DNA from: Caenorhabditis elegans
Lineage: Eukaryota; Nematoda; Chromadorea; Rhabditida; Rhabditidae
DNA: 64,000 nucleotides
Assembly (NCBI RefSeq): GCF_000002985.6
Contig: NC_003280.10
Location: 4,274,501 to 4,338,500 of the forward strand
Direction of reading: 5' to 3'
Shown: positions 15,368 through 63,200 of the stretch, piece after piece
Numbering within the stretch: the stretch's first letter is position 1
How the letters are laid out: the number at the start of each line of letters is the position of its first letter
The notes under the pieces: generated by a model
Database searches by the model: none
What the model was told of the DNA's origin: nothing
The model's input: only the letters and a program-made list of their open reading frames with translations
Made by a program: the position numbers and the translations under genes

Positions 15368-15868
15368 GCAAAAAAAATCGGCAAACCGGCAAATTGTCGG
15401 AATTAACAATTTCCGGCAAATCGGAAAATTGCCGGAATTCACAATTTCAAGCAAATCGGCAAACCGGCACCTTGCCGAAAATGAAAATTTCCGGCAAATA
15501 GACAATATGCCTAAAATGAAAATTTCCGACAAATCAGCAAACCGACAAAATACCGGAATTTAAAAGTTCCGGCAAATCGGCAAATTGGCAATATGCCGAA
15601 AATGAAAATTTCCGGAAAATCAGCAAATCGGCAAGTTGCCGGAGTTAACAATTTCCGGCAAATTGCCGGAATTCACAATTTCCGGCAAATTTGCAAACCG
15701 GCAAATTGCCGGAATTGACAATTTCTGGAAAATCGGCAAACCGGCAAATTGCCGGAATTAACAATTTTCGGCAAATTGGCGAATTGCCGAAATTTACAAT
15801 TTCCGGCAAATCGACAAACCAGCGAATTGTCGGAATTGAAAATTTCCGGCAAATCCTTGAGAGCGGAA
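15368..15868. repeat. CGGCAAAT minisatellite, copy 2
   Basis: About 500 bp of roughly 35-bp degenerate units alternating TTTCCGGCAAATCGGCAAA with TTGCCGGAATT spacers. No unique core is visible. Open frames on both strands across it are repeat artefacts. Confidence 0.85.
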
Positions 15869-20601: not shown

Positions 20602-23600
20602 ATGGTCTATACCCCGAAAAACGTGGTTATCACCGGCGGATGTGGCTTCATCGGTTCGAACTTTGTCAACTACATTCACGATGCTTGGCCGACGTGTAAT
20701 TTTGTGAACATCGACAAGCTCATTCTGAACAGTGACACTCAGAATGTGGCAGAGTCGGTGAGAAATTCCCCACGGTACAAGTTGGTACTCACTGATATCA
20801 AGAATGAGGCGGCGATTCTCAACGTTTTTGAGCAGAATGAGGTATGGATTGGAGAGCTTCTTCTAAATGAGACCTGTGCTCATTTGAAAGAGCACATTTT
20901 GGATAGGTCACTATAAAAAATTTAGCAAGCACTTTGAACTAGAAAAATGTCTCCAGATGTGGATTTTTGCCAGCTTTTGATGATTTTCAGAGTTTAGAGG
21001 TGGACAAACATTCTGAAAGCTTTTTGGAATTTTTAAGAAATTTCCAAAAAGTATTCAGAACGTTTACCTACCTCTAAACAGCCAAAAAATCATCGAAAGC
21101 TGGCAAAAATCCACAGTTGGAGAAATTTTTTTTCTAGTTCAAGGTGCTCCCCAGCTCCTAAATTTTTTGTAGTTACCAATCTAAACGATCCTATTTCATA
21201 TGACACAATGACCATCTTTAAATGCTAAAATTCAGATCGATACCGTAATCCATTTCGCCGCTGACTGTACTTCTACTCGGTGCTACAATGAGACCGCTGA
21301 AGCCGTTCAGAACAATGTTCTATCGTTCATCCAATTCTTGGAAACTGTTAGAACCTACGGAAAGATCAAACGATTCGTTCACATCAGTACAGACGAGGTT
21401 TACGGGGACTCTGATCTCTCGGAGAATGAACAAGGAAAAGTGGAATTCTCTCGACTTGTTCCAGGAAATCCGTATGCTGCCACTAAAATCGCCGGAGAGG
21501 CCTACGTCCGTGCCTACCAAACTCAGTACAACCTTCCAATTGTGACTGCCCGGATGAACAATATCTATGGGCCAAACCAGTGGGATGTCAAGGTGGTTCC
21601 AAGATTTATTGAGATTGCAAAGGTCCGTGGGGAATACACAATTCAAGGAAGCGGCAAGCAACTTCGCTCTTGGCTTTTTGTGGACGATGCTAGTGCAGGA
21701 TTGAAGGCAGTTTGTGAGAAAGGAGAACTCCACGAGATTTACAATTTGGGGACTTATTACGAGAAAAATGTTGCTGATCTAGCGAAAACGATTCAAGAAG
21801 AAGTTGATCTACAACTCGGAAGAGCCCACGAGCCACCAAAATACAAATCGATTCCCGATCGTCCGTACAATGATCTTCGCTATTTGATAAGTATCGAGAA
21901 GGCGAAAAATGATCTCGGCTGGGAGCCAACGACCTCGTTTGATGATGGAATGCGTCACACTGTTGCGTCGGCACTTAAGGAACATAAACATGTGAAGATG
22001 CACGTGGCAATCTATGGAGGAAAGGGATATGTTGGTCAGGAGTTGCAGCACGTGCTCAATGATAGACACATTCCATACGTGTTGGCAACGAAAAAAGTCG
22101 GATTTGATAGTGATGAAGAGGTAGGAGGAGAGGATGGAAAAATGTGGTTTTGCTGAATTGAAAATTTCCGGCAAATCGGCAAAACTGAACATTTCCGGCA
22201 AAACGGCAAATTGTCAAAATTGAAAATTTCCGGCAAATCCGCAATATGCCGAAATTGGAAAACGCCGGCAAAACGCAAAAGCCAAAATTGAAAACTTCCG
22301 GCAAAATGGCAAGTTGCCAAATTTGAAAATTTCCGGCAAGACGGCAATATGCCAAAATTAAAAAATTCCGGCAAAACGGCAAATTGCCAAAATTTAAAAA
22401 ATCCGGCAGAACGGCAAACTTCCGGGAAAACGGCAAATTGCCAAATATGGAAATTTCCGGGAAAACGGCAAATTGCCAAAATTAAAAAATTCCGGCAAAT
22501 CGGCAAAATGGCAAATTAAAAAATTCCGGGAAAACGGCAATTTTTTTTTCGAGCGTTAAACTACCATAAAATGGAAAATATTAAACTTTTCCAGGTTGAA
22601 AGAGAACTTGCCCTTCTTGGAGTGACCCACGTGATCTGCGTGACTGGAAGAACCCATGGGCCCGGCTGCAATACTATTGAATACCTCGAGGGTAGAGCTG
22701 ATAAGGTTTTCATTAACGTCAGGGATAATATGTATAGGTAGGTGGTCGAGAAAACTGATAGTAGGCACCTGTGCCGGTAATGAAAAGTACCGGCAAATCG
22801 GCAAACCGGCAATTTGCTGAGAATGCAAATTCCCGGCAAATCGGCAATTTGCTGGAATCGAAAATTACCGGCAAATTCGCTTTTTTCCAGCGCAACAATT
22901 TTGGCGCACATGTGTCGAAAATTGGGGCTGCACTATACGTACATTGGCACTGGTTACATGTTTGCTTATGATAAGGAACACCCGATTGGAGGCGCTGAGT
23001 TCAAAGAGGAAGGTTTGTGGGAAAAATATAATTTTTATAGTTTTAAAGGAGAATGCCGCAATTGAAAATTTCTGGCAAATCGGCACATTGCCGGAATTGA
23101 AAACTTCTGGCAAACCGTCAATTTGCCGGAATCGAAAATTACCGGCAAATCGGCAAATTGCCGGAATTTAAAATTACCGGCTAATCGGCAAATTGCCGGA
23201 ATCGAAAACTTCTGGCAAATCGTCAAATTGTCGGAGTTAAAACTTCTGGCAAATCGGCAAATTGCCGGAATTGAAAATTTCTGGCAAATCGGTGAATCGA
23301 CAAACCGGCAATTTGCCGGAATCGAAAATTTCTGGCAAATCGTCAAACTGTCGGAATTGAAAATTTCTGGCAAATTGGCATATTGCCGAAAATGTTCGGC
23401 AAATTGTGGTTTTGAACTTTTTTTTTGGAAATTTCAAAATTTCCAGTTCAATCGGCAAAATTGTACGCATACTAGGAATGTTCCTACATCTATTTTGAAA
23501 TTTTTGAAAAAAAAATTCCGGCAAATTGGCAAACCGGAAATTTGCAGAGGATCAAAATTTCCGGCAAATCGGCAAACTGCCGGAATTGAAAATATCTGGC

Positions 23601-24384
23601 AAATCGCCAAACCGGAAATTTGCCGGAAATTTTTCAAATTCCGGCAAATCGGCAATATGCCGGAATCGAAAATTTCCTGCAGATCGGCAAACTGGCAAAT
23701 TGGCAAACCGGCAATTGCCGCCAAACCCCTGATTACGACCAAATTTCTGTCATTCCCAGCAATTTTTGACTCTCCTCCACCAAAAATCTTTGCGGAAAAA
23801 TGTTGCTTTCAGACGAGCCGACATTCTTTGGTTCCGCTTATTCTGTTGTCAAAGGATTCACCGACAGACAAATGAACTATTTCAATCAAAATGTGAGTTG
23901 AAAAAGTGAAAAAGTGTTAGATAAGAATTATTTCATAAATTCTTTTTTTTTTTTGAAGGGCTGGGAAAACCTCAATGTACGAATAACGCTTCCACTCAGT
24001 TTGGACTTGGAACAACCACGAAACTTGTTATCAAAAATCATCAAATACAAGGAATTATTTGATATTCCAGTGTCACTGACCATCCTTCCAGATTGTATGA
24101 ATGCAATGTGCAATTTGATGGAACAACGAAGCGGTGGAACTCTGAACTTGGTCAATCCGGAGCCAATTAGTCTTTACGAAGTTGTGAAGATTTATAAGGA
24201 GATTGTCGACGAGACTGTCAATCCTACATCAATTGGAGTGGAAACTGAACGTGCTCAACATCTTCTGGCAACCAAGGGAAATTGCGCATTGGACACTGAA
24301 AAACTGCAGTCCTTGGCGCCGGTTTTGTCGGCGAAACAAAGTCTTATTAAGCACTTCAGCGAAATGACTAGTGCTGCTAAATAA
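20602..24384 (+). CDS. rml-4: Two-domain dTDP-rhamnose enzyme (RmlB-like dehydratase + RmlD/reductase-like)
   Basis: 631-aa prediction from six in-phase exons: 20602-20841, 21236-22120, 22595-22737, 22891-23012, 23813-23892, 23959-24384. The N-terminal domain (to about residue 340) is an extended SDR of dTDP-glucose 4,6-dehydratase type: Rossmann TGGCGFIGSNF (11-21), catalytic STDEVYGD, active-site YAATK, and RMNNIYGPNQW. The C-terminal domain starts MHVAIYGGKGYVGQEL and resembles the 4-keto-rhamnose epimerase/reductase half of plant RHM and UER1, with GTGYMFAYD and a second YSVVK. The protein would act in the cytosol making dTDP-rhamnose, a sugar of the nematode surface/cuticle (established for C. 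elegans). I recall C01F1.3 as rml-4; the symbol is from memory. Trans-splice acceptor TTCCAG lies 1 base before ATG. The last acceptor (TTTTGAAG) is non-canonical. Introns 2-4 are filled with CGGCAAAT repeats. Confidence 0.88.
22150..22545. repeat. CGGCAAAT minisatellite in intron 2 of the rhamnose gene
   Basis: About 400 bp of degenerate units of the form AAATTTCCGGCAAAACGGCA, filling most of the intron at 22121-22594. The prevailing variant CGGCAAAACGGCAAATTGCC is distinct from the neighbouring introns' variants, suggesting local amplification. Confidence 0.85.
22778..22880. repeat. CGGCAAAT repeats in intron 3 of the rhamnose gene
   Basis: Three or so units of ACCGGCAAATCGGCAAACCG in the 153-bp intron at 22738-22890, reaching to about 15 bases from the splice acceptor. 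Confidence 0.75.
23048..23740. repeat. CGGCAAAT element with internal core in intron 4 of the rhamnose gene
   Basis: Roughly 700 bp of TTCTGGCAAATCGGCAAATT units. A non-tandem core at about 23440-23510 contains TTGTACGCATACTAGGAATG followed by TTCCTACATCTATTTTG, which is shared with the elements near 14.6 and 59.65 kb. The end reads GCCAAACCCCTGATTACG, matching the CCCCTGA terminus seen at 57.49 kb. Confidence 0.82.
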
Positions 24385-33390: not shown

Positions 33391-33813
33391 TGTGAAAAAT
33401 CAACTAGGTACTTAAAAAAAAGAGAACTATTTGAACAATGGACTTCTCAAAACTTCAAAACTCGATGCTCTTGAAAAAAGGGCGGAGCTTGAGCTCTTGG
33501 AAATTTGATCCAATTTTATGAATATTTGATGTTTCAACTTTCCAACACTTTTCGAAACAGTAAGCGAAAACCAAACTGCAAACATTTTAATTTGAAAAGT
33601 CGCAATTTTATAAAGTATGTCCAAGAGTTTTGGCTTACTTGTGCTCCGGATTAAGTTACACTAGACCCCTGTCACGTCACGATTTTGATCTTTGTGGAAG
33701 CTTTTTTGTGTTGTGTTGGGGGCCGAAAGTTTAACAAACTGAGAGCAAAAATGAATTTATGACAACAGAAAAAGCAGGTAAAAAAATTACTCTCTGGCTT
33801 CACAGAATATTTA

Positions 33814-34669
33814 TTTAATTATTTAATTAATATTTATTTATTTAATTAATATTTATTTATTTAATTAATATTTATTTATTTAATTAATATTTCTTTATTT
33901 AATTAATATTTATTTATTTAATTAATATTTATTTATTTAATTAATAATTATTTATTTGATTAATATTTATTTATTTAATTAATATTTATTTATTTAATTA
34001 ATATTTATTTATTTAATTAACATTTATTTATTTAATTAATATTTATTTATTTAATTAATATTTATTTATTTATTTAATTAATATTTATTTATTTATTTAA
34101 TTAATATTTATTTATTTAATTAATATTTATTTATTTATTTAATATTTATTTATTTAATTAATATTTATTTATTTAATTAATATTTATTTATTTAATTAAT
34201 ATTTATTTATTTAATTAATATTTATTTATTTATTTAATTAATATTTATTTTTTTAATTAATTTTTATTTATTTAATTAATATTTATTTATTTAATTAATA
34301 TTTATTTATTTATTTATTTAATTAACATTTATTTATTTAATTAATATTTATTTATTTAATTAATATTTATTTATTTATTTAATTAATATTTATTTATTTA
34401 TTTAATTAATATTTATTTATTTAATTAATATTTATTTATTTATTTAATTAATATTTATTTATTTAATTAATATTTATTTATTTAATTAACATTTATTTAT
34501 TTAATTAATATTTATTTATTTAATTAATATTTATTTATTTATTTAATTAATATTTATTTATTTATTTAATTAATATTTATTTTTTTAATTAATATTTATT
34601 TATTTAATTAATATTTATTTATTTATTTAATTAATATTTATTTATTTAATTAATATTTATTTATTTATT
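33814..34669. repeat. AT-only satellite, 19-bp unit TTTATTTATTTAATTAATA
   Basis: About 855 bp of a very regular 19-bp unit with 4-bp (TTTA) length variants giving 23-bp units, and almost no G or C over the whole length. No coding or RNA feature. Confidence 0.97.
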
Positions 34670-34987
34670 TGTCACTCTGTTGTCACCCAGTTGTCACTCA
34701 GTTATCACCCAGTTGTCACTCAGTTGTCACTCAGTTGTCACCCAGTTGTCACCCAGTAGTCACTCAGTTGTCACCCAGTTGTCACTCAGTTGTCACCCAG
34801 TTGTCACTCAGTTGTCACCCAGTTGTCACTCAGTTGTCACTCAGTTGTCACCCAGTTGTCACCCAGTTGTCACTCCGTTGTCACCCGGTTGTCACTCAGT
34901 TGTCACTCAGTTGTCACCCAGTTGTCACTCCGTTGTCACCCAGTTGTCACTCAGTTTACAACTGAGTGACAACTGGGTGACAACTGG
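34670..34987. repeat. GC-richer minisatellite, 11-bp unit GTTGTCACYCA
   Basis: About 28 tandem 11-bp units alternating CCAGTTGTCAC and TCAGTTGTCAC, abutting the AT satellite without a spacer. The last ~30 bp flip orientation (ACAACTGAGTGACAACTGGG), making a terminal hairpin. Two overlapping open frames exist only because the array of 11-bp units has few stops; I do not call them genes. Confidence 0.97.
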
Positions 34988-34989
34988 AT

Positions 34990-35075
34990 TTTTCTGAACG
35001 AAAAAGCCAAACGCGGAAATTAAACCCTACCGTACCCATTTTTAAAGGCGCAAGTCTTTATCAGGCAAAAATCCG
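34990..35075. repeat. Dispersed repeat with AAATTAAACCCTACCGTACC
   Basis: Reverse-complement copy of a sequence also found at about 45930-46020 and 48355-48450 (GCGCCTTTAAAAATGGGTAC, GGTAGG(A/G)TTTAATTTCCG, CTTTGGCTTTTTCGTTC). It directly follows the minisatellite hairpin. Confidence 0.8.
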
Positions 35076-35336
35076 GCCGCGTTTCTAAAATTCCAGGCAC
35101 AGTATTTTAAAAACAGATTTTTTAAGAGAAAAAATACTTGTTGAAATAAGTTTATTTACATCTCAAAAAATTAAATTTAACAAAATCGTAAAACTTAAAA
35201 CAATTACAACGAGATACATTTTTATTATACCAGTGGTTGCGGTGAGATAGAGTGAGACCGTAAGCTGCCAAGTTTGCCAGTAGGAATGACAGTTATAGGA
35301 GCTTCTGAATTGTATATTTAGTGAAGAAATCATGTG

Positions 35337-42298: not shown

Positions 42299-45200
42299 TT
42301 AGTTAAATAAACTCAAATTCAAATTCAAATGCCGAGTTTTGTGGAAATACAATCGTTGGGCTAGAACTGTTGTGATAGCTGATAAAATTGCAAAAACTCC
42401 GTAGAGAACGAGATGACCGGCCAGCGTGAAGTATTTTGAAACGAAGAAGGCTATTGTTGAAGATATCGCCTGAAAATTGAGCAGGGTAGGGGTAGGTCGC
42501 ATTGAAGGCAGGCAGGCAGTATTGTGCCTAAATTGTGTGTGGCAGTATTTCTCTGCATTTCGAACAGTCTAAATAATTATTTAAAATAAGCGCTAGGACA
42601 TTTTCAAAAGTTCTACTGAAAATGCGAATTTGACATGATGTACAGACATGCCTACCTGCCTTGTTGCCTGCCAGAATCCTATTCGAAAAAGCGGCCTACC
42701 AAGCAGACATTCCCACTTACACTGTAAAACTTGAATAGAGCAAATGCGTGAGACGATTCCTCCGAGTACCCGTCACAGAGGAACGAGTAGACTTGAGTCT
42801 GAATAATTGCATCACCGAAACCAAGAAGCCCAGAACAGAATATTGCTATATAGGCACTGAAAAAAATCATAATTTTAATTTTGAAAATTCCCTAAAAAAT
42901 ACAAACTTTGGCTCAAAAGTCCCAACATTCTGTGTAGGATGCAATGGTGCATCATATGGGAAGAACAAATAAATCAGTACAAAACATATCAAATGAAGTA
43001 CACAAGCAATCACTACAATCATATCTTTTCCGAGTATTCTGACACGTTTTCCGAGTACTGAGAATATTCCACCAGCTACAATTTGACCAATCCCGGTTGC
43101 AATTCCACTCATCGCTAGAAGTTTTGCGGTGTTATCTCCGAGTGCGGGGGTGAATTTGATGCAGGTTGGGTAGATTGCTGTAAGGTTTCAATTCAGCATG
43201 CCCATGTGCCTGCCTTCTGTAGCCACAAGCCTTTTGTAGGCACAACTTACCAATCCAAAAAGATCTGGAAAATCCTGTATAGAGGAAGATAGAGACCAGG
43301 AGGAGCATTGGAGATTCACGCATTATTTTGAACGTGGCTTCTGGAAATTTTTTACCAAAATTTTTATAGAAGGCTTTTAATTTTTAAGTAAAAATTTTTC
43401 TGAACTGGTTTTTTTTAAATTTCAAACAACCTGAAAATCCCATATATATATATATTTATTCAAATCGTCGTAACAAAACAGAAAGTATAGAATAATCACC
43501 GGGAGAAACAGACTTGAATAATTTGAATGATCCTGTAAACCAGAAGTAGTTAAGGGGATCAAGTTGGGTGGGAAAAATAATTAAACGGGATAGAATTTAA
43601 TCGTGATGCAAACATTTGACGGCTCATTGTCCCCGGAAGTAACTTGGCCATACGGTTCCATAGGTGAAGATTGACTAGTAGGAAGCTTTCGTTGATTGAT
43701 CCACAAGGGCACATCATGTACGGATATCTGGGTGAGCGAGCCTTCCTCACAGTTGATGCGGCATTCGGAAAGTGGTATTCACCAGACATGATGTTGTGAT
43801 AGGTCCTCAATATTTGAAGAATCCGCAGGTGTTGAACTGACTTTTGGTTCATCTGAGCTAGACGGTTTTCATATGATGAGTATGATAGATTGCAGCGTTG
43901 GAAGACTCTTCTCGAGAAAAACTTCAGTGGCGACTCCAGTTGTTTAATCAGATTTTTAGAGATCGGGTTGTAGATTTCACATCCGTAGTTTAATATTGGC
44001 TGCACATAGATATTGTACAATTTGAAGTAAAGGCTGGCATTTGTTGAGCGGAAGGATCGAAGTAACTGCCGGCATTTGAGAAGGGCTAAGTTCGAAATGA
44101 TGTTTATGTGCTTCTGGAAGTTCAGCTTGTCGTCGACGAAGATTCCAAGGTCTTTCACTGAGTCCTTTTTGGTGATTTTCATTCCGTTTGCATAATATTC
44201 ATTTTTTGGATTCCGCTTTCCAAAGTGAATAACATTGGTTTTGTTTTCAGCAAGGTTCAATTTCCATTTTGCGCACCAATCCGTCACGACATTGATTGAT
44301 TTTTGAATAGCGCTGACATTGTCACCAAGTAACTTGATATCATTTAATGTGATTTTTTCGCAATTTTCTCTACTCCGAAAAATTTTGGAAAACATTTCAA
44401 AACTAGGTCTCATACTGTTAGGTAGATAGATAGGCAGGCAAAAAGCAAAAAAAATCTGCCTACTTCCCTGACAACCTACGCCTGCCCGATGATGGGCTGT
44501 ATATGTGCCTACTGCCGAGCAGCTGAACTTTCATTAACAGTCAAAATGAAATAATCTTCAGTCAGTGACATTGTGCTCACACTCAATTTAGATTAGGTGG
44601 TAGGCAGGCAGGCATAAAGGCGACCTACCATAAACTCACTCAATGTCTTCGCGAACGTCTCATGCTTCTTTCTCTCCGGAACATACACTGATTGTGGCAG
44701 AAATGCCGTGTTAATCGCCGCCAATAGAGAAATGGAACAACAGATATAGACGAATGTTTTGTACTGAAAATTGGCAGAATTAGAAACAGATGGATGTTGG
44801 AAATACAATACATCTCCAGATTCCAGAAATTCGTTCATTTTTTGATTGTAGAACAGAACGTAGAGAAATATTCCACCACCGAGGAGGCTTGAAAAATCAA
44901 AATGGTACAGAGAATTGATGGAAGTACTCACCAGAACTTAAAAATGAACCAAGTCAGAGCAATATTTCGTTCAATAGTTTCACTTGTGCAGTTTTCCGTC
45001 AGATATTTTCCCTGGCCAACCCATATGACTGAAAGTTTCAGAACATTTGCGAAGCCCTCCTGATTCATACTTACAAGCACCACCGACACCCAAACTCGCT
45101 GAAGTAATGTACACATAATAAGTATTCATATGTATAAATCCATATTGAAATGCAATATATGCCGAAAATCTCAGAACCATTCCCCATTTCGCGGAAATCT

Positions 45201-45469: not shown

Positions 45470-45924
45470 ATCCGAAATCGGAAGCCTCTAGATTTTTATT
45501 CCTGTAAAAACTACAAATTTGAAACAAAGTTTCAAAAAAAAGAAACTTGAAAAAAAATAATTTATGACTTGGAAAAAATATCAAAGGTTTATGACAAAGA
45601 CAAAAACTAGGCACTCTACTTTTTGTCATTTTTTATACTATCCAACAATATTATTCTTCTCCTTTTTCAGTCATCAGTGAAACTTTTTTCCGAATAATCC
45701 AGAAATTTGCATAATTCCCTTTAATTTGGAACGTTCAATTCGAGAAACTTGTTCAAAAACCGTCAATATGTATCGAAACGAGGAACTAACACAGCCAAGC
45801 ATCAAGTAATTGTATTTTTACTATAAAAGTGTTTTTTTTGGAATTGTAAATAAACCTTTTTCAACATGTGGTTTCCTCTTAAAACCTCTTTTATTTTTAA
45901 TTCTGTGCCTGGAAATTTCAAAGA

Positions 45925-46022
45925 CGCGGCGGGATCTTGGCCCGATAAAACTTTGTGCGCCTTTAAAAATGGGTACGGTAGGATTTAATTTCCGCTTTGG
46001 CTTTTTCGTTCAGAAAGATGTC
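45925..46022. repeat. Dispersed repeat, plus-orientation copy 1
   Basis: TGTGCGCCTTTAAAAATGGG, TACGGTAGGATTTAATTTCC and GCTTTGGCTTTTTCGTTCAG. Same family as 34990-35075 (inverted) and 48355-48450. Confidence 0.8.
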
Positions 46023-46354
46023 AATTAAATTCAAATTTTCCTTATTTTATTTGTTTTTTTTTTGGAAATAATATTGAAAAATATATAAATTATTCAACAA
46101 ATTCGAAATTCTTAATTTTACCTCCATTTAAATTAATTAACTACTCAATCGTTGCGAAACCCGTGCAAGAATTATACCATGTCCCTTGAAGCGGTACGGT
46201 AGGCCCACGTTTTGTTTGCCACGCTGGATTTATCGATTTTTCGGATCTTTTCTGAATTGTGCAGCTTTCTCTGTGTGATTTTGTCGTTAACTGGTTTTAA
46301 AAATATTATTTTTCCCAGAATATATTAAGTTTTAGAGTTTATCGATTGGAAATC

Positions 46355-47035
46355 ATGGTAAACACGTTGGAAGGCCTAGAATCGACGAGGAATTTGATTT
46401 TGAAGGAAAATCCAATGCGACGAGCCGCGGAACTTGTCGCCAGGTATTTTTAATTACGGCATTCAACTAAAATTTTAATTTGTATTTTTCAGACTATCGG
46501 CAGATGAAGTTACGATGCGTGCCGCGAAATACGAGCTGATCAAGTTCAATCGAGCATTCCAGAATTTCATGCTAGTGTTGGATGAGAATATTGAAGAGAT
46601 TCTGATGTCAAACGACAATTCTACTCGAATTCAGCTCAAGAAGCTTCCGGAATTTCCATCCTTCTCGGATTCGTTTATGCAAGAATATGAAAAAGCTCTT
46701 CTGAATGGCGCAGAGAAGCTCAAAGCTTCAACCTCCAGCGAAAAAGGATCCATCCCGTCAGTCTCCTTTTCTTCATCAATTTCAAGCTCTAGCGCCGAGC
46801 TATCAGATGCTCGATGCCTTATCTGTCTGGACGACGTTATTTCGACTGAAAAAACTATCAAATGCAATTCGTGTAGACGTCGGTTTCATCTCGATGTAAG
46901 ATTATTCATTTCAAAAACCTTTTCATAAATAAATTTCAAAATTTTCAGTGCGCTTCCCAATGGTTCAAGGAAAAGAGCGTTTGTCCAGCTTGTAATCGAG
47001 GGATGCTGGATCCAACGGAATTTCCATCTCTTTAA
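46355..47035 (+). CDS. Small RING/PHD-like zinc-finger protein, probable E3 ligase
   Basis: 192-aa prediction from three in-phase exons: 46355-46443, 46493-46895, 46949-47035. The N-terminal ~100 residues are charged and probably helical, followed by a Ser-rich linker (SVSFSSSISSSSAE). The C-terminal finger has ligands C138, C141, C154, C157, H162, C165, C176 and C179. This C4HC3 order is PHD-like, but spacing and the W at ASQW resemble TTC3/DZIP3-type RING domains, in which the fourth ligand would normally be His. The gene ends with DPTEFPSL soon after the finger. Ubiquitin-ligase activity is an inference. Distance to the next gene start is about 300 bp, which would suit an operon. Confidence 0.85.
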
Positions 47036-47105: not shown

Positions 47106-47111
47106 AATAAA
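47106..47111 (+). promoter_or_regulatory. AATAAA polyadenylation signal of the RING-like gene
   Basis: Canonical AATAAA 71 bases after the stop codon. Confidence 0.7.
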
Positions 47112-47333
47112 ACTATAACATAGCTTTTGGAGTGGTTTCGACGTCGATCAGAATTTTTCGGGATGTCGACTGAACTTGACTTGCATAAATTCAATCGCCT
47201 TAAAAAACACAGAAATTCGAACTTTTCTTATTTTTTTTCGGACAAAAAATTGAGAAAAAACGAAAAATTAATTTTTACAAAAAAATTAAAAATAAAAAAA
47301 ACTCGAACATTCTATGAATTTACAGCCAAAATC

Positions 47334-47482
47334 ATGCCAGACGCAATTCTACCGGACAATGATGATGATTTGGAGATGAATGAAGAACAGGAAGAGCCTC
47401 CTAGCTCAGGAAACGTGAAAAATGAAGATTTTGAGGAAATTGAAGAAGCTGTCAAGGGCGAGGAAAAACTAAGTTTCAGATA
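47334..47482 (+). pseudogene. Frameshifted copy of the DDX49 N-terminal acidic segment
   Basis: Begins with an acceptor-like TTTACAG, CCAAAATC and ATG, matching the DDX49 start at 54520-54534. It reads PDNDDDLEMNEEQE much like the helicase's acidic N-terminus. It then stops at 47480-47482 because an indel shifts the frame relative to the downstream copy. In the present transcript this would be a 49-codon upstream open frame ahead of the chimera's usable ATG at 47566. Confidence 0.75.
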
Positions 47483-47565
47483 AAGAAAAATCCGATGGAG
47501 AAGAAGGCGATGAATTCAAGTCATCAGATGACACCCCAAAGCCCATTCAAATCTCCGAAGACAAC

Positions 47566-48056
47566 ATGACAACTAAGAAATTCTCCCAGCTCGGCGTGTG
47601 CTCCTGGATCAACCAACAGCTCGAAACTATGCAAATTAAAACTGCGACGCCGGTTCAGGCGGCTTGTATTCCAAAAATTCTCGAAGGAAGCGAGGAACCG
47701 GAGCCGGTCCCGGAGCATGAAATTCTTACTGTTGTAATTAACAAGGTATACATCCCGAACACATCCAGTATACTTATACAGATTTTTTCAGACATCCAGT
47801 CAACATTTTGGATGCCATATTACAATCTCAAATGGCATCGCCAAGGTTCTTTCGGTTATTCCAGGATCGCCGGTAGATGAAGCTCTTTATGCTGGTGACA
47901 TAAACTTATCGATCGATGGAATAAATATTTATAATTATGTAAGAATTAGATTTTTTAAATGTAATTTTTTGTATTTTTTTGCAGGGAGGTTTAAGAGATT
48001 TCAAGAATCGAGGAAACATCACTTTGAAGGTCCAACGCACAATTGAAAAACAATAA
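47566..48056 (+). CDS. Chimeric protein: DDX49 Q-motif segment fused to a PDZ-like domain
   Basis: 132-aa prediction from three in-phase exons: 47566-47745, 47792-47938, 47985-48056. Residues 1-42 (MTTKKFSQLGVCSWINQQL..., through IPKILEG) duplicate the Q-motif region of the DDX49 gene 7.2 kb downstream. The DNA over 47498-47693 matches 54719-54914 without gaps, with about 8 differences by my count. Homology breaks at GGAAGCGA, exactly where the helicase reads on to DILG and Walker A. The remainder carries PDZ-like features: FGCHITISNG, VLSVIPGSPVDEALYAGD and LSIDGINIYNYGG. The helicase core is absent, so it cannot be a helicase. The in-frame stop upstream forces translation from 47566. Whether it is expressed is unknown. 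Confidence 0.75.
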
Positions 48057-48339: not shown

Positions 48340-48452
48340 GCATCTCTTTCGATCTTTGCCTGATAAAGACTTATGCGCCTTTAGGAATGGGTAGTACGGT
48401 AGGGTTTAATTTCCGCTTTGGCTTTTTTGTTCATAAAAATTCCAATTAAATT
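48340..48452. repeat. Dispersed repeat, plus-orientation copy 2
   Basis: CTGATAAAGACTTATGCGCC, TTTAGGAATGGGTAGTACGG, TAGGGTTTAATTTCCGCTTT and GGCTTTTTTGTTC. It lies between the chimera and the TMEM222 homologue and may overlap the promoter of the latter. Confidence 0.78.
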
Positions 48453-48759
48453 AGAATTTTCCTATTTTTAGTTGCCGAATAAATATTAAATTTTCTTATT
48501 ATTCCAAGTTTTTTGCGCGTACAATACTGCGCATTGTGTGCAGTTTCGCCGCGCGGTGTTTGCGGACATTTGAATTTTCGATTTATTTTTTTCCAGAATT
48601 TTGCGTTTTTCGATTGTTTTCCTTCAATTTTGAGGCGATTTTTTGATTTTTCGGCTTAAAATTATCACGAAATTTTGTTTCATACATTTTAAACGTTTTA
48701 ATCACCTGATCTGCTCGTTTTTTTCCAATTCACCAGTGTCTATCTCCATTTCTAGGTCA

Positions 48760-53645: not shown

Positions 53646-54531
53646 ATTTCCCCTGCTTTAATTTTTTTCTCGATTTCCTACTGCTTTTTCATGTTTTCAT
53701 ACGTTTTTTCTTACTCTGTTTGTTGCCTTTTTTCTATATGCTCCCGTTAAAAGAACTTAAGTCTTGCATAAATTGAATTTGAATTTTTTTTCGATTTTTA
53801 ACTGCTTTATTATGGTTTTTGAAATCCAATTTTATCTTTTTTTTTTTGAAAAAAAAAACATTTTTTGGTTTAATAAGTTTTTTTTCCAAATTTCGATATT
53901 TTCCCCGTTATTCAACAAAATTCATCGATTTTTTCATCGTTTTCACATTTTCAGAATTTTTTTTCGAAAAAAACTGAAAAAGTAGCCTAAAACCGATAAT
54001 TTAACATTCAATCATATTTTTTGCGAAAAAAATTGAAAAAAAAACTATTTTTCAAGTTTGTCATTTTTTGATTGATTACTAACTTAAAAAATGGTTTTTT
54101 TTTTCAAATTTTTTCCCATAAAAAGTATAATTTAATGTTAAACTATCGATTTTTAGGGTACTTTTACAGTTTTTTGAGAAAAAATGTCTGGAAAAATGGG
54201 AAACCATGTTTCAAATTATAAAAAACTGCAAAAAGTGAAGAAAAATCAATAAATTTAGTCAAAAAACTCAACAAAAAAAGTTTTAAAAATTCGAACTTTC
54301 TCAATTTTTTTAGAAAAATGAAAAAAATATCGATTTTTCGAACAAAAAATCGAGAAAAAAGAAGAAATTATGGAAAAAATGAAATTCTTTCAAAAAAGTC
54401 GGAAAATTAATTGGAAATTATGGAAATTTTCCAATAAAATTTCAAAAAATACCGAATAATCAAGAAACGATGAATTTTTTTTTTGATTTTTCAACAAAAA
54501 ATCAAAAAATCTGAAATTTCAGCCAAAAACC

Positions 54532-57500
54532 ATGTCAAAAGTGTGCGATGCAATTCTATCGGACGACGATGATGATTTGGAGATGGATGAAGAGCAGGAA
54601 AAGCCATCTACGAGCTCAAAATCCGTGAAAAATGAAGAATTTGAGGAATTTGAAGACGGCGAAGATGTAGAGGATGAGGAGGATGAAGCTTCAGATGAAG
54701 ATGAAGAAGAATCTGAAGGAGAAGAAGGCGATGAATTCAAGTCATCAGATGACACCCCAAAGCCCATTCAAATCTCCGAAGACAACATGACAACTAAGAA
54801 ATTCTCCCAACTCGGCGTGTGCTCCTGGATCACTCAACAGCTTCAAACTATGCAAATTAAGACGGCGACGCCAGTTCAGGCGGCTTGTATTCCAAAAATT
54901 CTCGAAGGAAGCGATATTTTAGGTAAGGAATCGGGAAATTTTTGGTTTTCAATGAAAAAAAGCTAGAAAAAATAGGAAGTGTTCGAATTCGCCTTCAAAA
55001 AACTAGAAAAATCGGATAATTCTCGATTTTTCTTTTACTTTTGTTTTTAAAGGAAAATCGAAAATTTCCTAATTTTCCATCGAAATTTTCCCTGAAAAAA
55101 ACTAGGAAAATTAAAGCGGGAAATTTTTTATAATTTTTATGGAAAAAAGAAAGAAAAATTGAATAATTTTCGATTTCGCCTTCAAAAAGCTAGAAAAATC
55201 GGAAAATTTTAGTTTTTTTTTTCGTGAAAAAATTCAAAAAAAGAAGCAAAAATTATCGTTTTTTTCACTGAAAAAACTAGAAAAATTGGATAATTCTCGA
55301 TTTTTCTTTTATTTTTTTCAAAGGAAAAATCGAAAATTTTCCAATTTTCCCTCGAAAAATACAAAAATTTCAAAGTTCCCTTTAAAAAAATCGGAAATTA
55401 TTGAATTTTCTTTTAAAAAATTAAAGTTGGAAAATTTTTATTTTTTTCATGGGAAAAAGAAAGAAAAATTGAATAATTTTCGATTTTCCCTGAAAAAAAG
55501 TGAAAAAAATATTTAAAAATCTGAAATATTCTCGGTTTTTTAAATTTTTTCAGAAAAAAATCGTAATTTTTTCGATGTTTTCAGAGACAAATTATTTTAA
55601 AAAGTATATATTTTTTAAAATTTTTCCAAAAAAAAAAATTGAAAAATTGTTGAAATTCAATGATAAAATATTAAAATTTCCTTTAAAAATAAATAAATTT
55701 TCGCGAAAAATTCGATTTTTTTATAGGAAAATCAAAAAAACAACGGAAGAAAAATGTTTGAAATTAATCTAAAAATTCAATTTTTAATCCGATTTTTCAA
55801 AAAAAAAAACCGACATTCTTACAGGCTGCGCACGTACTGGAACAGGAAAAACCCTGGCTTTTGCAATTCCAATTCTTCAAAAACTCTCAGTTGACCCATA
55901 CGGAATCTATGCTCTAATTCTGACTCCAACTCGAGAGCTCGCCTTCCAAATCGCCGAGCAATTCACTGCTCTCGGAAAACCAATAACTCTGAAATGTTCT
56001 GTAATTGTTGGTGGCCGAAGTTTAATCCATCAGGCCAGGGAGCTCAGCGAGAGGCCTCATGTGGTTGTAGCCACACCTGGAAGGCTTGCAGATTTGATTG
56101 AAAGTGATCCTGATACAATTGCAAAAGTATTCAAAAAAATTCAATTTTTTGTGCTTGACGAGGCGGATCGGATGCTTGAAGGACAGTATAATGATCAACT
56201 TAAACCGATTTTTGAATCAATTTCTGAAAAACGACAGACTCTTCTACTATCGGCAACTATCACGAATAATATCAACATGCTTCATAGGGTCTCGACACGA
56301 AAACCATATTTCTTTGAGGATAAGGGAAAAGATGATGAGTCGACGGTTGATCGGCTTGAGCAGAAATATGTGGTGTGTCCGGTGGCTGTGAAGGATGCTT
56401 ATTTGGTTTATGTCGTCAAGAATTATAGGTGAATATTGATTTTATTGGCCTTGTGTACTCCACGAGGAGAAGTTTTTGGTTTAAGATTTTTTTGAAAACT
56501 ACGAAAATTTGTTCTATAGCTCCTGATCAGGGGTGCGGCATTTTTTTCCGATAAATTTAGCGGCGAAATGCCGGTTTGCCACAATTTGCCGGAAAAAACC
56601 TGATTACCGGAATTTAAATTTCTGGCAAATCGGCAAATTGCCGGTCTTGAAAACTTCCGGAAAATTGGCAATTTGCCGGATTAAAAAATTTCCGGCAAAT
56701 CGCCAAATTGCCGGAATTGAAAATTTCTGGCAAATTGGCACACCGGCAACTTGCCGGAATTGAAAATTTCCTGCAAACCGCCAAGTTGCCGATTTGCCGG
56801 AAACACAGTTTTAAGTGTTTCCGTCTCATAAAAAAAACCATCTAAACATTTCCGGCAAATCTGGTATCCGGCAAACGGCAAATTGGCAAATTGCCGGAAT
56901 TGAAAATTTCCGGCAAATCGCTGAATTGCCGGAATTGAAAATTTCCGGTAAATCGGCAAACTGACAACTTGCCAGAATTGAAAATTTCCGACGAATTGAT
57001 AAAGCGGCAAATTGGCAAACCGGCAACTTGTCGATTTGCCGAAAAAACGCCAATTTTCGAATTTTTTTGAAAAGTAAGCAAATCATATTGAAATATCTAA
57101 AGAAAACGGGAAAGAAAAATTCAAAAAGACACTATTGTTTCCGTTTTATAAAAATTCCTCTAAAACTTCCAGCAAAGTGATATCCGGCAAATTGGTAAAC
57201 CGGCAACTTGCCGGAATTGAAAATTTCCGGGAAACCGCCAAGTTGCCGATTTGCCGGAAAAAAACGCCAATTTCCGAATTTTTTAGAAAAGCAAACAAAT
57301 TCTATGAAAATATCTTTTAAAAACGAGAAAAATTTCAAAAAAGCACAATTTTAAGTGTTTCCGTCTTATAAAAAAATCCATCTAAACATTTCCGGCAAAT
57401 GGCAAATCGGCAATTTGTCGGAATTGAAAATTTCCGGCAAATTGACGAAGCGGCAATTTTCCGATTTGCCGAACGACAATTGCTGCCCCACTCCCCTGAC

Positions 57501-59235
57501 TTGAATGAATCCCGTGAAACTTTATAAAATTTCAGCGAAAAAAATCCCAAATCATCAGTAATGATTTTTGCCCAAACATGCCGTGAATGCCAGGCTCTTG
57601 CCTATATGTTCGAAGGACTTGGTTTCCGTGTTGGCTCTCTTCACTCTCAAATTCCACAGAAACAACGTCTGGCAGCACTCTCCGCTTTCCGTTCGAAAAC
57701 TCTTCAAGTCATTATTTGTACTGATGTAGCATCACGTGGATTAGATATTCCACACGTGGATCTTGTCGTGAATCATAATGTTCCACAGTGTCCAAAAACA
57801 TATATTCATAGAGTTGGACGATCTGCGAGAGCTGGTAGATTTGGATCTGCGCTGAGTTTTGTTACACAATATGATGTGGAACTTCTGCAGGCTGTGGAGC
57901 AGGTTATTGGGAAGAAGCTCGATGAGTTGAAGGTAAAAATTCAAACTTTCAGGAAAAATATCTGGAAAACCCAAAAATCAACTCGGATTTTCAATTTTTG
58001 TTTTTGAAAAATCCAAAAAATAAATTAAAAAATTGTTTTTTTTGTTGAAATTTCTGAAAAAAAATTACTAAAAATTTTAGAAAGTTTTCGTTTTTTTCCA
58101 TAATCAGGCTGTGGAAAGAATTGAAGGTTTAAAAAATGGAAATAATTGAGACAAAATTTAAGAAATTTCAAATTTTCGGTTTTCAACAACAAAAAATCGA
58201 AAAATTTATAGATTTATCTATTATTTCAGTTGGAAATTGATTGAAAACGAAAAATATACATTTTCCGACAAATCGAAAAAAAAATTTGATGAAAAAATAG
58301 AGAAATTATATAAATTTCTTCAAAAAAAAGATTAATCAAAAACTAAATCAAAAACTTGCTTTTCAAGAAAAAAAAAGGAATGAAGCGCATATTTACCTGA
58401 AAAAATATTTTAAAGAAAAATCTTTAAATCTTTAAAAAATTGAATTTTTTTTCTAAAATTTGATTTCAAAAAACATGAGAAACATATAATTTTCGGCAAA
58501 AAATAGGGAAAAATTGCCTAAATTTGAAGCTATATTTTTTTTTCGGAAAATCTAGAAAAAAAGCGAAAAAAAAACAAAAATTGCACTTCTTTTGTAATTT
58601 TCCAGTGCCATATTTTGGATAAAAAAGGAAAATTTTTAATTTTTTTTTCGAAAAAAGCGAGTTTTTCTGCTAAAAACACGAAAAAGGCGGAAGAAACATT
58701 TTTTTTCAAAAAATTTGAATTTCCCGCCAAAATATTGAATTTCCAAACTCCTTCCACTTTCAATGACGCCAAAAAAAAATATTTTCCTCTCATTTTTCAC
58801 TCTCTAGTTGACTGCGTTTCTCTCTATATTGACGCAAATAATTTTTTTTTCATCATTTTTTCCCCCGTCTCTTTTCATTTCTCTACACAAAAAATCTACT
58901 TTTTAATCAATAAATTCCCTTAATTTTCGCATTTTTTTCAGGTCAGCCCAAAACATGTCACCAAATACGTCACCCAAGTGCTTGTGGCGAAGAAAGAAGC
59001 CGAGTTGAAGCTGGAAAATCAGAAATTCGGAGAGAAAAAGGAGATTAATCGAAGAAAAGAGCTTCTGATGAGTGGAATGGATGAAGATGAAGCTGATAGG
59101 CATTTGGAGGAAATGAGGACTCGAAGAATGACAAATTCCAAGAGAAAGCTGGAGAAAATTAGTGGACAATTGGATAAAAGAGATCGATTTCAGAAGAAAT
59201 TGGCGGCGAAAAAAGTGAAAAAGGAAGAAAATTGA
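54532..59235 (+). CDS. DEAD-box RNA helicase, DDX49/Dbp8 family
   Basis: 561-aa prediction from four in-phase exons: 54532-54922, 55825-56428, 57536-57932, 58942-59235. Residues 1-80 are very acidic (Asp/Glu/Ser). Helicase motifs in order: Q-motif region KKFSQLGVCSW (~83-105), Walker A ARTGTGKT (133-140), PTRELA, ATPGRLAD, DEAD (242-245), SAT, FAQTCRECQAL, CTDVASRGLD and HRVGRSARAGR. The C-terminus is a Lys/Glu-rich helix with RFQKKLAAKKVKK. The family works in the nucleolus in 40S ribosomal subunit biogenesis (established for yeast Dbp8). All catalytic motifs are intact. The ATG is ten bases after an acceptor ATTTCAG. Intron 2 is filled with CGGCAAAT repeats. A partial copy of exon 1 lies at 47334-47693. 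Confidence 0.94.
56528..57500. repeat. CGGCAAAT element with matching termini in a DDX49 intron
   Basis: Begins TGATCAGGGGTGCGGCAT and ends GCTGCCCCACTCCCCTGAC, so its ends are inverted (CAGGGGTG / CxCCCCTG). Inside are roughly 35-bp units (AATTGAAAATTTCCGGCAAA, TTGCCGATTTGCCGGAAA) and three copies of a TTTAAGTGTTTCCGTCTTAT-AAAAAAxCCATCTAAA block at about 56815, 57130 and 57350. It occupies nearly the whole 1.1-kb intron. Confidence 0.85.
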
Positions 59236-60255: not shown

Positions 60256-63200
60256 ATGATCTCCAGTGAGCACAACTATCAGCATTTATATCACGAAGAA
60301 CAATACGATATGTGAGTTTAAAATGATATTTGGATAAATTTAGAAAAATCGAATTTTTGAAAAAAAAAATCAGATTTTTCTCAAAAAAGATCCAATTTAT
60401 TTTCCGATAAATTGGCGAAAAATCAACAATTTTTTATATATGAAAAAAGAAAATTTTTCTAATTGTAAGTACTTACGAAGTGCTAAAAATAATTTAATCT
60501 ACTAAATAAAAAAATTAAAAAAAAACTTTTGTTGTCAAAATTTTTTTTTTTCAACAAACAATTTTTTATTTTAAAAAGGTAAAAAATCAGTTTTTGCAAA
60601 CACTTTTTTTCGAAAAAAAAAAACGTTTTTTACTTTAAAAAAAAGATGTTTCTAAAAACCTTCGAAAAATACCAGATTTTTCGAAAAAATTGCAATTTTT
60701 TTAATACGAAAATTTAAAAAAGTTAATTTTCGAAACAAGTCCATTTTTTAATTATATATTCTATCAAAAAAAATTGAATTAAAAAAAAACTTGATCTTCC
60801 ATTAAAAACACATTTTTTTTCGATAAAAATCTTTAAAAATCTTAAGGTGTTTTTTCTTGAGAAAAAATACTCGATTTTCTTTTTAAAAAAAACTGCGCTT
60901 TTTTTGTAAAAAATTTAAAAAAAAATTAATTTCCGACAGAAAAACTATTTTTTAAAATTATATATTCGATAAAAATTCAAAAAATCGCGTTTTCCTTTAA
61001 GAACATATTTTTGGATAAAGTTTGATGTTATCAGTTTTTTTTTTCAAATTAGAAAAATCAAAAATTCACTCAAAAAAATCCCAAAAAGCATTTTTCCGAA
61101 AAAAAAGTTCGCTTAAAAAAATCAGAAAATTATCTGATTTTTCTAAAAAAAATCATAAATAACCTTTTTTTGCAGGAACTACACAGCGACCCGCTTCGGC
61201 GAGGAAATGATCGAACCGACATTCAACCTACGTCTCATCGAAGCCGTCCGTCATAGTCGATGCCTTTTCGACAATACAGACCGACAATACCGTAATACAG
61301 AATACAAAAATCGAGTTTGGCAGCGTCTGGTTACTGTACTCGGTTTTGATGGTGATCCGAGAATGTTATCTGCGAGATGGAAGCAATTAAGAGATAAATA
61401 TGGAAAAGAGAAGAGAAAACAAAAATATGGAAATGAGAAATCATCATGGCAATATTTCAAACATCTTCATTTTCTAGATCCACATATGACAGATCGAGCA
61501 GAAATATCACCATCTCGAAAAGAGCCAACTGGAGTTCATGAAAAGATTGCTGAGCCATGTTTTGGAAAAAATCTAATTCTTGAAGTGAGAAGGCATCCGT
61601 GTCTTTATGATGTTCGTGATCCAAAATATCGTCATGGAGACTGTCGTACTCAAGCATGGGGAATGATTATTGATAAACTACGATATCCTGGAACAGTTCC
61701 GTCGATTTATAAACAATGGAAGAAGCATCGAGATCGATATGTTAGGGAGAAGAGGAGGCTGAGGAATTTGGTAGGCATTTGGAGGCCTCATGAAAAGGAG
61801 AACTTATGGAAAATGGGATCTGGCAGGCGGCAGTTGCCGGTTTACCTATTTGCCGGAAATTTTGATTCCCGGCAAAGTGACGATTTGCCGGAAATTCTAA
61901 TTTTAGGCAATTTGCCGGTTTTCCGGAAATTTTGATTTTTGGCAAATTGCCTATTTGCCGGAAGTTTTCATTTTGGGCATTTTGCCGATATGCCGGAATT
62001 TTTAATTTTAGGCAATTTGGCGATTTGCCCGAAATTTTGATTTTTGGAAAATTGCCTATTTGCCGGAAATTTTGATTTTTGGCAAGTTGCCGATTTGGCG
62101 ATTTGCCGGAAATTTTGATAAACGGCAAATTTGGCGATTTGCCGGAAATTTTGATAAACGGCAAATTTGGCGATTTGCCGGAAATTTTGATATTCGGCAA
62201 ATTTCCGGTTTGGCGATTTGCCGGAAATTCTAATTTTAGGCAATTTGGCGATTTGCCGGAATATTTTTATTTTCGGGATATTGCCTATTTGGCGATTTGC
62301 CGGAAGTTTTAATTTCGGGCAATTTGCTGATTTGCCGGTTTGCCGGAAATTTCGATTTTCGACAAATTCGGCAAGTTGGAAATTTGCCGGAATTGCCGGA
62401 AAAAATCGTTTGCCCCTCCCTGCCTGGCACTGCCAACGCACAAAACTCAATTTTTCTTTGAGAAAAAATTGGCACAGTGCCAGAATCCCCTTTCTCAACA
62501 GTATCCCGTTTTCGTGGAGCCTCTATTTTTGTTTTAAACAGAAATTTTACAAATTTTTCTTAGCAACTTCAGGGTGATCCGAATGTTCAAGATGTGTCAA
62601 CTTGGGAGATGTATGATGATATGGCTTGGATAGATCAGCATTTGGATGAACGTACGAGCTTTTTTTCCTGGAAAATTAAAACAAAAAACCTTTAAATCAA
62701 ACTGATCCTGAATGCCGAAATACCATAAAAGGCCCCCGAAAAAAAAAATCAAAAATCATTAAGTTTGAAAAAAAATCGGTTGATTTTGGTTAATTTTCAA
62801 TTCTGACTAATCTCCTAATCATTTAAATTGCCGCGCCTTTTTCAGCGCCGCACTCCGTAGATCTGTATCTGCGCGACGTTAATTCTAGTTTTTCCCGTTT
62901 TTTCCTCGCAAGTGAAGACAATAGTGCGGATGCAGATCTACGGACAATAGTGTGGATGCAGAGAGATTCAGGATCAGTTTGCGCATTTTGAAGTAAAATC
63001 CCTCATTTACTCCTACTCCTCCAGCTTTAAAATCGTTTTTTTTCCTCAATATAAATACGAAAAAAGAGTTTAGTTTTAGAACTCTTGTTTTGACATGTAA
63101 AAAATTTCGCACCGCCATATGTGAAATTACGAATTACGCAGTTCCATGTATTATTTTACGTGGCTCCTAAAATCGCCGGAATAAATACTTTAAAAAAAAC

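Follow-up and report, generated by a model that had tools for sequence, protein, structure and literature searches.

What kind of gene lies at 47334-48056, on the plus strand of the 64,000 nucleotides of DNA analysed here (hereafter the window, positions 4274501-4338500 of what we take to be chromosome II of C. elegans N2)? Its predicted 132-residue product matches, at 100% identity along its whole length, a C. elegans database record, P0001, which carries the name 'RNA helicase', and the initial annotation had read the same bases as a new chimeric gene, in which a copy of the first exon of the helicase gene DDX49 is joined to a PDZ-like domain. The locus is real, and it belongs to a well-known class, that of partial or chimeric duplicates. 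The questions are where each part came from, how much of the copied piece is still read, and whether the result works as a gene.

The source of the copy is DDX49 (54532..59235, plus strand), with exons at 54532-54922, 55825-56428, 57536-57932 and 58942-59235 and a product of 561 amino acids, a splice model that agrees with the alignment to DDX49 of other Caenorhabditis species. The gene is listed as H20J04.4 (PMC12511879, Table 1, the part of that paper available to us), and its database record P0003 matches the Pfam families DEAD and Helicase_C. This record (488 aa) runs into the third intron and ends there, whereas 58942-59235 encodes the C-terminus that other species conserve and completes the 561 amino acids of our model.

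Local alignment places the copy at 47294..47693 against 54493-54914, both on the plus strand, over 396 aligned columns with 41 mismatches, plus gaps. It takes in the 5' part of DDX49 exon 1 and about 30 bp upstream, and lies about 7.2 kb upstream of its source as a direct, same-strand repeat. BLASTN within the window gives E 3.7e-120 for the copy against DDX49 exon 1. A whole-genome search with 47334-48056 (seven contigs, 100,286,401 bases) returned two matches, the query itself and DDX49 exon 1 (E 8.4e-118, 86%), and at such an E-value chance is excluded as the source of the likeness. The initial count, made by eye, of about 8 differences in 196 turns out to be exact: 47498-47693 and 54719-54914 differ at 8 of 196 ungapped columns, and over 47478-47693 there are 12 mismatches in 216. 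The 3' border is sharp, the match ending at 47693/54914 after GGAAGCGA, 8 bases short of the end of DDX49 exon 1 (54922). The 5' border is soft: the 32 bases of 47294-47325 are A/T-rich and differ from DDX49 by 7 mismatches and a gap, and the similarity of the 100 bases upstream of the two genes is marginal (42 of 1000 shuffles score as high). Hence the proposed short-range duplication, in which sequence of the DDX49 first exon was copied at the DNA level, on the same strand, and joined to PDZ-like exons, is supported, and alignment and splice model bear out that the match stops inside an exon and that an in-frame run into the PDZ-like domain follows over two more exons. Retroposition of a DDX49 mRNA is not favoured, as the splice acceptor is kept in the match; at best, SL1 and SL2 match 47240-47340 in 10 and 11 of 22 letters, and shuffled sequences do about as well (means 10.8 and 10.7).

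The gene model consists of three coding exons on the plus strand without a stop over 132 codons, separated by two GT..AG introns of 46 bases each. Exon 1 (47566..47745), which the identity to P0001 also covers, encodes 42 DDX49 residues from Met86 onward, the Q-motif segment, followed by the non-homologous EEPEPVPEHEILTVVINK. After intron 1 (47746..47791, GTATAC..TTTTCAG), exon 2 (47792..47938) carries the main part of the PDZ-like domain, according to the PDZ_6 match and the profile comparison given below; after intron 2 (47939..47984, GTAAGAA..TTTTGCAG), exon 3 (47985..48056) ends the domain, with the stop codon at 48054-48056. Chimera residues 1-42 align with DDX49 residues 86-127 and 40 of the 42 are identical, the two exceptions being N at 101 and E at 105 (DDX49 numbering). 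The region that contains TATPVQ, presumably the Q-motif, is kept together with the upstream aromatic residue, F91. Motif I (ARTGTGKT in DDX49), the DEAD box and the RecA domains are absent: the copy ends at 54914, and the bases for motif I belong to the second DDX49 exon, from 55825 on, outside the copied part. At E<=10, PDZ_6 and PDZ_2 are the only Pfam families that the 132-aa protein matches, and its NCBIfam matches are weak ones to bacterial helicases, confined to residues 1-42 (best 17.5 bits against 524). The record name 'RNA helicase' is misleading as a reading of this protein sequence, which has neither motif I nor the helicase core. The genes of clone H20J04 covered in the literature, as far as its available parts go, are H20J04.1,.3,.4,.5,.8 and.9, and a WormBase name of the chimera's own was not found; nor do titles and abstract openings in the open-licence literature describe a DDX49-PDZ fusion.

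The start region of DDX49 was copied as well. Between 47334 and 47566 the copy differs from DDX49 by indels that keep the frame (-9, -3 and -6 nt) and, further on, by -5 nt between 47460 and 47506. The former DDX49 start and its acidic N-terminus now form a 49-codon upstream open frame (47334..47483, plus strand; TAA at 47481-47483), within a stop-to-stop frame of 47124-47483. This is what the initial annotation had described, an acidic N-terminus that was copied yet frameshifted and that leaves an upstream open frame, and the net change of -5 nt and the TAA agree with it. Because other species keep the longer start, the -9 nt change is probably a loss in the copy; the changes of -3 and -6 nt may have happened in either gene. 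The acidic part may have been read for a while before its frame was lost, at which its earlier, in-frame indels hint. Past the closed upstream frame, the first ATG in the lower frame is at 47566, the likely translation start of the chimera, as in record P0001. To call translation from this ATG forced, as had been done, goes too far: a full listing of GT..AG pairs contains 12 stop-free joins, from three donors (47415, 47451 and 47473), by which the old start could be brought back into line with the PDZ frame. Such cis-splicing from the acidic N-terminus is nevertheless unlikely, since all three donors look weak against the worm consensus.

The reading that we prefer, with a probability of about 0.58, is that PDZ exons resident at the site captured a promoterless 5' piece of DDX49, that translation starts at Met86 and that the product is a PDZ-type adaptor. 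According to this reading, some 400 bp around the DDX49 start would have been duplicated at the DNA level to a position about 7.2 kb upstream, in the same orientation, and the duplicate would have come to lie 5' of PDZ-coding exons resident at that site. It would have supplied a splice-leader acceptor, an internal Met codon and an open segment of 42 codons, and probably neither a promoter nor a helicase core. The net frame change of 5 nt would have cut off the old start, and the protein would most likely begin at DDX49 Met86 and read into the PDZ-like exons. The transcript would most likely start at an older local promoter or arise by read-through from the RING gene, 0.3 kb upstream. As far as one can judge from sequence, the likeliest product would be a small PDZ-type adaptor, in which the DDX49 segment would be a leader for expression, not for helicase function.

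The most serious competitor, which we nevertheless consider unlikely, is that the locus is a neutral and decaying partial duplicate, annotated by a gene caller and not usefully expressed, with PDZ exons that are the remnant of an old gene. The broken upstream frame and the weak PDZ scores fit this view, and so do the many amino-acid-level changes in the acidic part. The sources of the P0001 cluster are, furthermore, only ncbi, uniref and nr; P0010, which matches DDX49, has an lgn tag, which we take to stand for read assemblies. On the other hand, the three exons have GT..AG borders and are stop-free over 132 codons. By a codon score trained on DDX49 codons alone, the PDZ exons, taken together, look coding in the annotated frame and in none of the other five, and 11 of 2000 shuffles reach as high.

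The comparison of the copy with DDX49 bears on the same point. By NG86, the 42 translated codons give dS 0.26 and dN 0.021, and in the out-of-frame part 34 codons without gaps (those with gaps were excluded, as was the stretch that follows them) give dS 0.286 and dN 0.128. Non-synonymous changes amount to 2 per 98.7 sites in the translated codons, as against 10 per 85.2 in the out-of-frame part (Fisher p 0.013, or 0.033 outside a 92-bp identical run that is discussed below), at equal synonymous change (p 1.0). This lower non-synonymous change in the translated part suggests constraint on it and argues against neutrality. Yet the acidic part differs much between species in DDX49 itself, and neutrality of the copy is not rejected if the 6 synonymous changes are split evenly between the branches (average probability 0.14); only with all 6 placed on the copy does the probability drop to 0.0019.

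Is the gene young, as the initial annotation had it? In our opinion it is so in relative terms only: no fused relative was found in the searched database, but synonymous divergence has reached 0.26-0.29. We aligned the C. elegans DDX49 model and record with 8 other proteins, two of which (P0010 and P0012) lack the N-terminus; the alignment did not take in C. bovis or two additional C. brenneri records. This leaves six informative rows, from C. briggsae, C. brenneri, C. japonica, C. remanei, C. angaria and C. auriculariae. DDX49 is the ancestral copy in this comparison, which was made at the protein level and not with outgroup DNA: it has the full-length structure seen in other Caenorhabditis, and N101 and E105 occur in the copy only. 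An extra DT at 74-75 is found in both C. elegans DDX49 and the copy and is absent from all six other-species rows. Since these residues are common to those two sequences only, they point to a lineage-specific duplication, although they lie inside a candidate gene-conversion tract. An F-containing acidic stretch (EEFEEFE in C. elegans DDX49, DFEEIE in the copy), which is likewise found in none of the six rows, lies outside that tract, in a low-complexity region that aligns poorly. C. inopinata, the closest sister species, was not among the DDX49 matches listed (120 of 4675).

The candidate tract is the longest mismatch-free run, 92 bp at 47497..47588 (plus strand). Its permutation p is 0.0006 over the 396 columns and 0.018 within 47484-47693, uneven constraint being ignored in both. 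The 27 codons between the out-of-frame and the translated part give dS 0.067 and dN 0.031, and this low dS fits the identical run; together they suggest gene conversion between DDX49 and the copy, which makes age estimates uncertain. Worm gene-conversion tracts are reported to cluster at 50-200 nt (PMC3966223, in its available part). One may build a bolder version of events on this. An orphan PDZ gene resident at the site would have captured the DDX49 5' end; the 5-nt change would have turned the old start into a harmful upstream frame; a new TTTCAG acceptor (47479) would let splice-leader addition remove that frame, leaving the internal Met first; conversion from DDX49 would keep refreshing the leader; and the PDZ protein would be under selection only in C. 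elegans. We regard this version as improbable.

It could also be asked whether the 3' part is a PDZ domain at all. In Pfam, PDZ_6 matches residues 79-127 with E 8.9e-4, at 19.4 bits against a curated cut-off of 27, and PDZ_2 reaches 17.1 bits against a cut-off that is also 27. The PDZ reading is therefore below the Pfam cut-off and is the weakest point in the description of the locus, though profile comparison supports it. With hhalign, the PDZ-like part (residues 56-109 aligned) reaches 83.7% against a hand-chosen set of 21 C. elegans PDZ segments, taken from 21 of 30 loci (L038-L067), and the full protein 79.5%; residues 1-60 reach 0.1%, and 30 shuffles at most 3.4%. For orientation, a worm PDZ catalogue counts 93 domains in 62 proteins (PMC3091786, available part). 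A single-sequence fold model of low confidence (pLDDT 35.9) has strands and helices in the order strand-strand-strand-helix-strand-strand-helix-strand, which is the PDZ order. Foldseek with this model gave 124 matches at E<=10 and none at E<=0.001, the best PDB row being a PDZ domain (E 0.45), and VIA-align did not place a PDZ domain among its best 50 rows. A search of solved structures by sequence was left out of the argument: of its 22 sequences at E<=1, malaria circumsporozoite constructs ranked first, with low-grade matches (9.9e-5 for the whole sequence, with no single stretch passing), and several Golgi-associated PDZ domains were among them, from E 0.077.

The origin of this part was sought in the genome and in protein databases. 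At E<=10 the genome searches, which score their best candidates and skip very common words, found no second copy by DNA (one match, the part itself) or by protein (three matches, its own three exons); one further search for a PDZ donor gave a single chance-level match on chromosome IV (E 9.4), and the nearest among the worm PDZ loci that were fetched has a phmmer E of 0.03. Among about 5.8 billion proteins the 132-aa protein has no relative but itself (6 candidates), and a search widened in length returned no longer relative of the PDZ part at E<=10 among 14 candidates. These database searches reach proteins that share 5-residue words and fall within the length range, so that a fast-evolving orthologue could be missed. 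A protein search, which the initial annotation had proposed for finding the PDZ donor, accordingly did not produce one; within the reach of 5-residue words and of the length range, the protein database contains no relative of the fused protein, in line with the claim that the fusion is new.

These results permit an explanation after the manner of the C. elegans gene fog-2, in which the partial duplication recruited non-coding sequence of its neighbourhood and the PDZ likeness is a coincidence. A 3' part with no genomic or database relative within search reach, and with weak single scores for PDZ, is what it would predict, but coincidence sits badly with a profile probability of 84% as against at most 3.4% in 30 shuffles, and with strands and helices that follow the PDZ order even in a low-confidence model; we judge it very improbable. 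Non-coding DNA is an unlikely origin for a PDZ domain, and the genome searches found no donor for it elsewhere. For these two reasons, it was probably a resident, single-copy PDZ gene that captured the DDX49 piece; that the PDZ part existed earlier as a gene is suggested by its domain likeness.

How would such a gene be transcribed? Donation of a promoter by the duplication had been claimed, and here we disagree. Above the acceptor the copy extends for no more than about 30 bp, and these contain 7 mismatches, so promoter donation is not favoured and the copy probably carried none in. Donation of a trans-splice site and first exon fares better, in that the acceptor sequence and the 5' part of exon 1 were copied, although the acceptor, whose last base is at 47325 (plus strand; aatttacag/CC, in DDX49 aaatttcag/CC), has lost one T relative to DDX49; its use in trans-splicing may be supposed from the sequence comparison. 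The copy has also gained an acceptor-like site at the end of the upstream frame, with its last base at 47479 (plus strand; taagtttcag/AT, thus TTTCAG/A), a candidate alternative trans-splice site. Directly upstream lies a RING-finger gene (46355..47035, plus strand; zf-RING_2, E 3e-10), a possible source of transcription. The copied start codon follows 299 bp after its stop, and an AATAAA occurs at 47106; at so short a distance, the chimera locus may be driven from the RING gene promoter.

On the DDX49 side, the gene is the fourth of a same-strand row that begins with an RTE1-like gene (PF05608), an LRR_9 gene and prefoldin-2 (Prefoldin_2). The gaps in the row are 453, 852 and 886 bases, which is wide for a worm operon, so it is possible that DDX49 has a promoter of its own in the 886-base gap; that gap falls outside the copy, and a putative promoter there was not taken along. 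That the duplication nonetheless brought its own promoter and that the protein is a decoy or adaptor for DDX49 partners is a far-fetched proposal: 40 of 42 residues and the Q-motif stretch are indeed as in DDX49, and a promoter could sit in the 886-base gap, but the copy has only some 30 bp upstream of its acceptor, DDX49 stands fourth in its row, and a Q-motif segment without motif I and RecA core is not known to bind partners alone, which leaves sequence identity as the one argument for a decoy. We take the LRR_9 gene of the row to be mog-2, H20J04.8 (PMC4132184, available part). A position of DDX49 within an operon is suggested by gene order, although the gaps are wide. In C. bovis a protein model (P0013) joins prefoldin and DDX49, and a Heterorhabditis record (P0016) carries Pfam domains of prefoldin and of a DEAD-box helicase; these fusions would fit a conserved neighbourhood or operon, or else repeated fusion by gene callers.

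The surroundings contain further repeats. One of them, 82-88% alike between copies, occurs at 34988-35170 (minus), 45835-46053 (plus) and 48351-48474 (plus), and a genome search with one copy gave three matches, all in the window (very common words skipped). The two plus-strand copies flank the block of RING gene and chimera as direct repeats. As stretches 45933-46053 and 48351-48474 they also lie about 300 bp before the starts of the RING and RTE1-like genes, and a shared promoter repeat was considered; the third copy (34988-35170) is behind a gene end, and the idea was dropped. Directly behind one repeat copy, 33800-34990 holds long TTAATTAAATAAATAAATA-type arrays beside a GTGACAACTGG-type unit, and related CCGGCAAATTGCC-type arrays occur at 56603-57470, 15375-15855, 22155-23725 and 61834-62394. 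An open frame at 43559-44530 (minus) is, judged by eye, presumably the C-terminal part of a non-LTR retrotransposon reverse transcriptase.

What makes the locus useful is less its class, which is already well known in worms and a common route to new worm genes, than its clarity. In a reference animal, it offers a clear case of exon capture with copies 7.2 kb apart and a 3' break known to the base, in which a conserved helicase gene contrasts with a partner for which no relative was found. It also explains how 42 copied residues gave a 132-aa PDZ-like protein the database name 'RNA helicase'. If the gene is expressed, it would allow one to test on a small scale what is gained with a captured first exon, here a start codon and a splice-leader site, and not a promoter or a domain.

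With regard to known systems, the available part of a survey of 290 young C. elegans duplicate pairs (PMC3449122) first classes 116 as chimeric and 21% as partial, and later reclassifies 43% of a 23-pair chimeric subset as partial duplication with recruitment. As in the chimeric duplicates of that survey, each copy here has sequence that is missing from the other. Strict chimeric duplicates, as described there, have at least two duplicated donors; here one donor, DDX49, was found, and the unique region has no second genomic copy by DNA or protein at E<=10. One genic donor together with unique exons from the new neighbourhood, which lack genomic matches, fits partial duplication with recruitment, with the qualification that the exons recruited here resemble a true domain. 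The possible conversion tract is of the size reported for worm paralogues (PMC3966223, available part). With DDX49/Dbp8 itself, the DEAD-box RNA helicase H20J04.4, the chimera shares 42 N-terminal residues, 40 of them identical and the Q-motif stretch included, but it is without motif I, DEAD box and helicase domains. The closest parallel is fog-2, which arose from ftr-1 in C. elegans (as told in the available part of PMC3449122): there too the 5' part of a neighbouring gene on the same chromosome was copied, the match ends inside an exon, and the remaining exons are native to the new site, with a donor for them found nowhere else in the genome. Unlike in fog-2, the recruited part here looks like a PDZ domain and was thus probably resident coding sequence rather than non-coding DNA, and the old start of the chimera was cut off by a frameshift, so that an internal Met is probably used.
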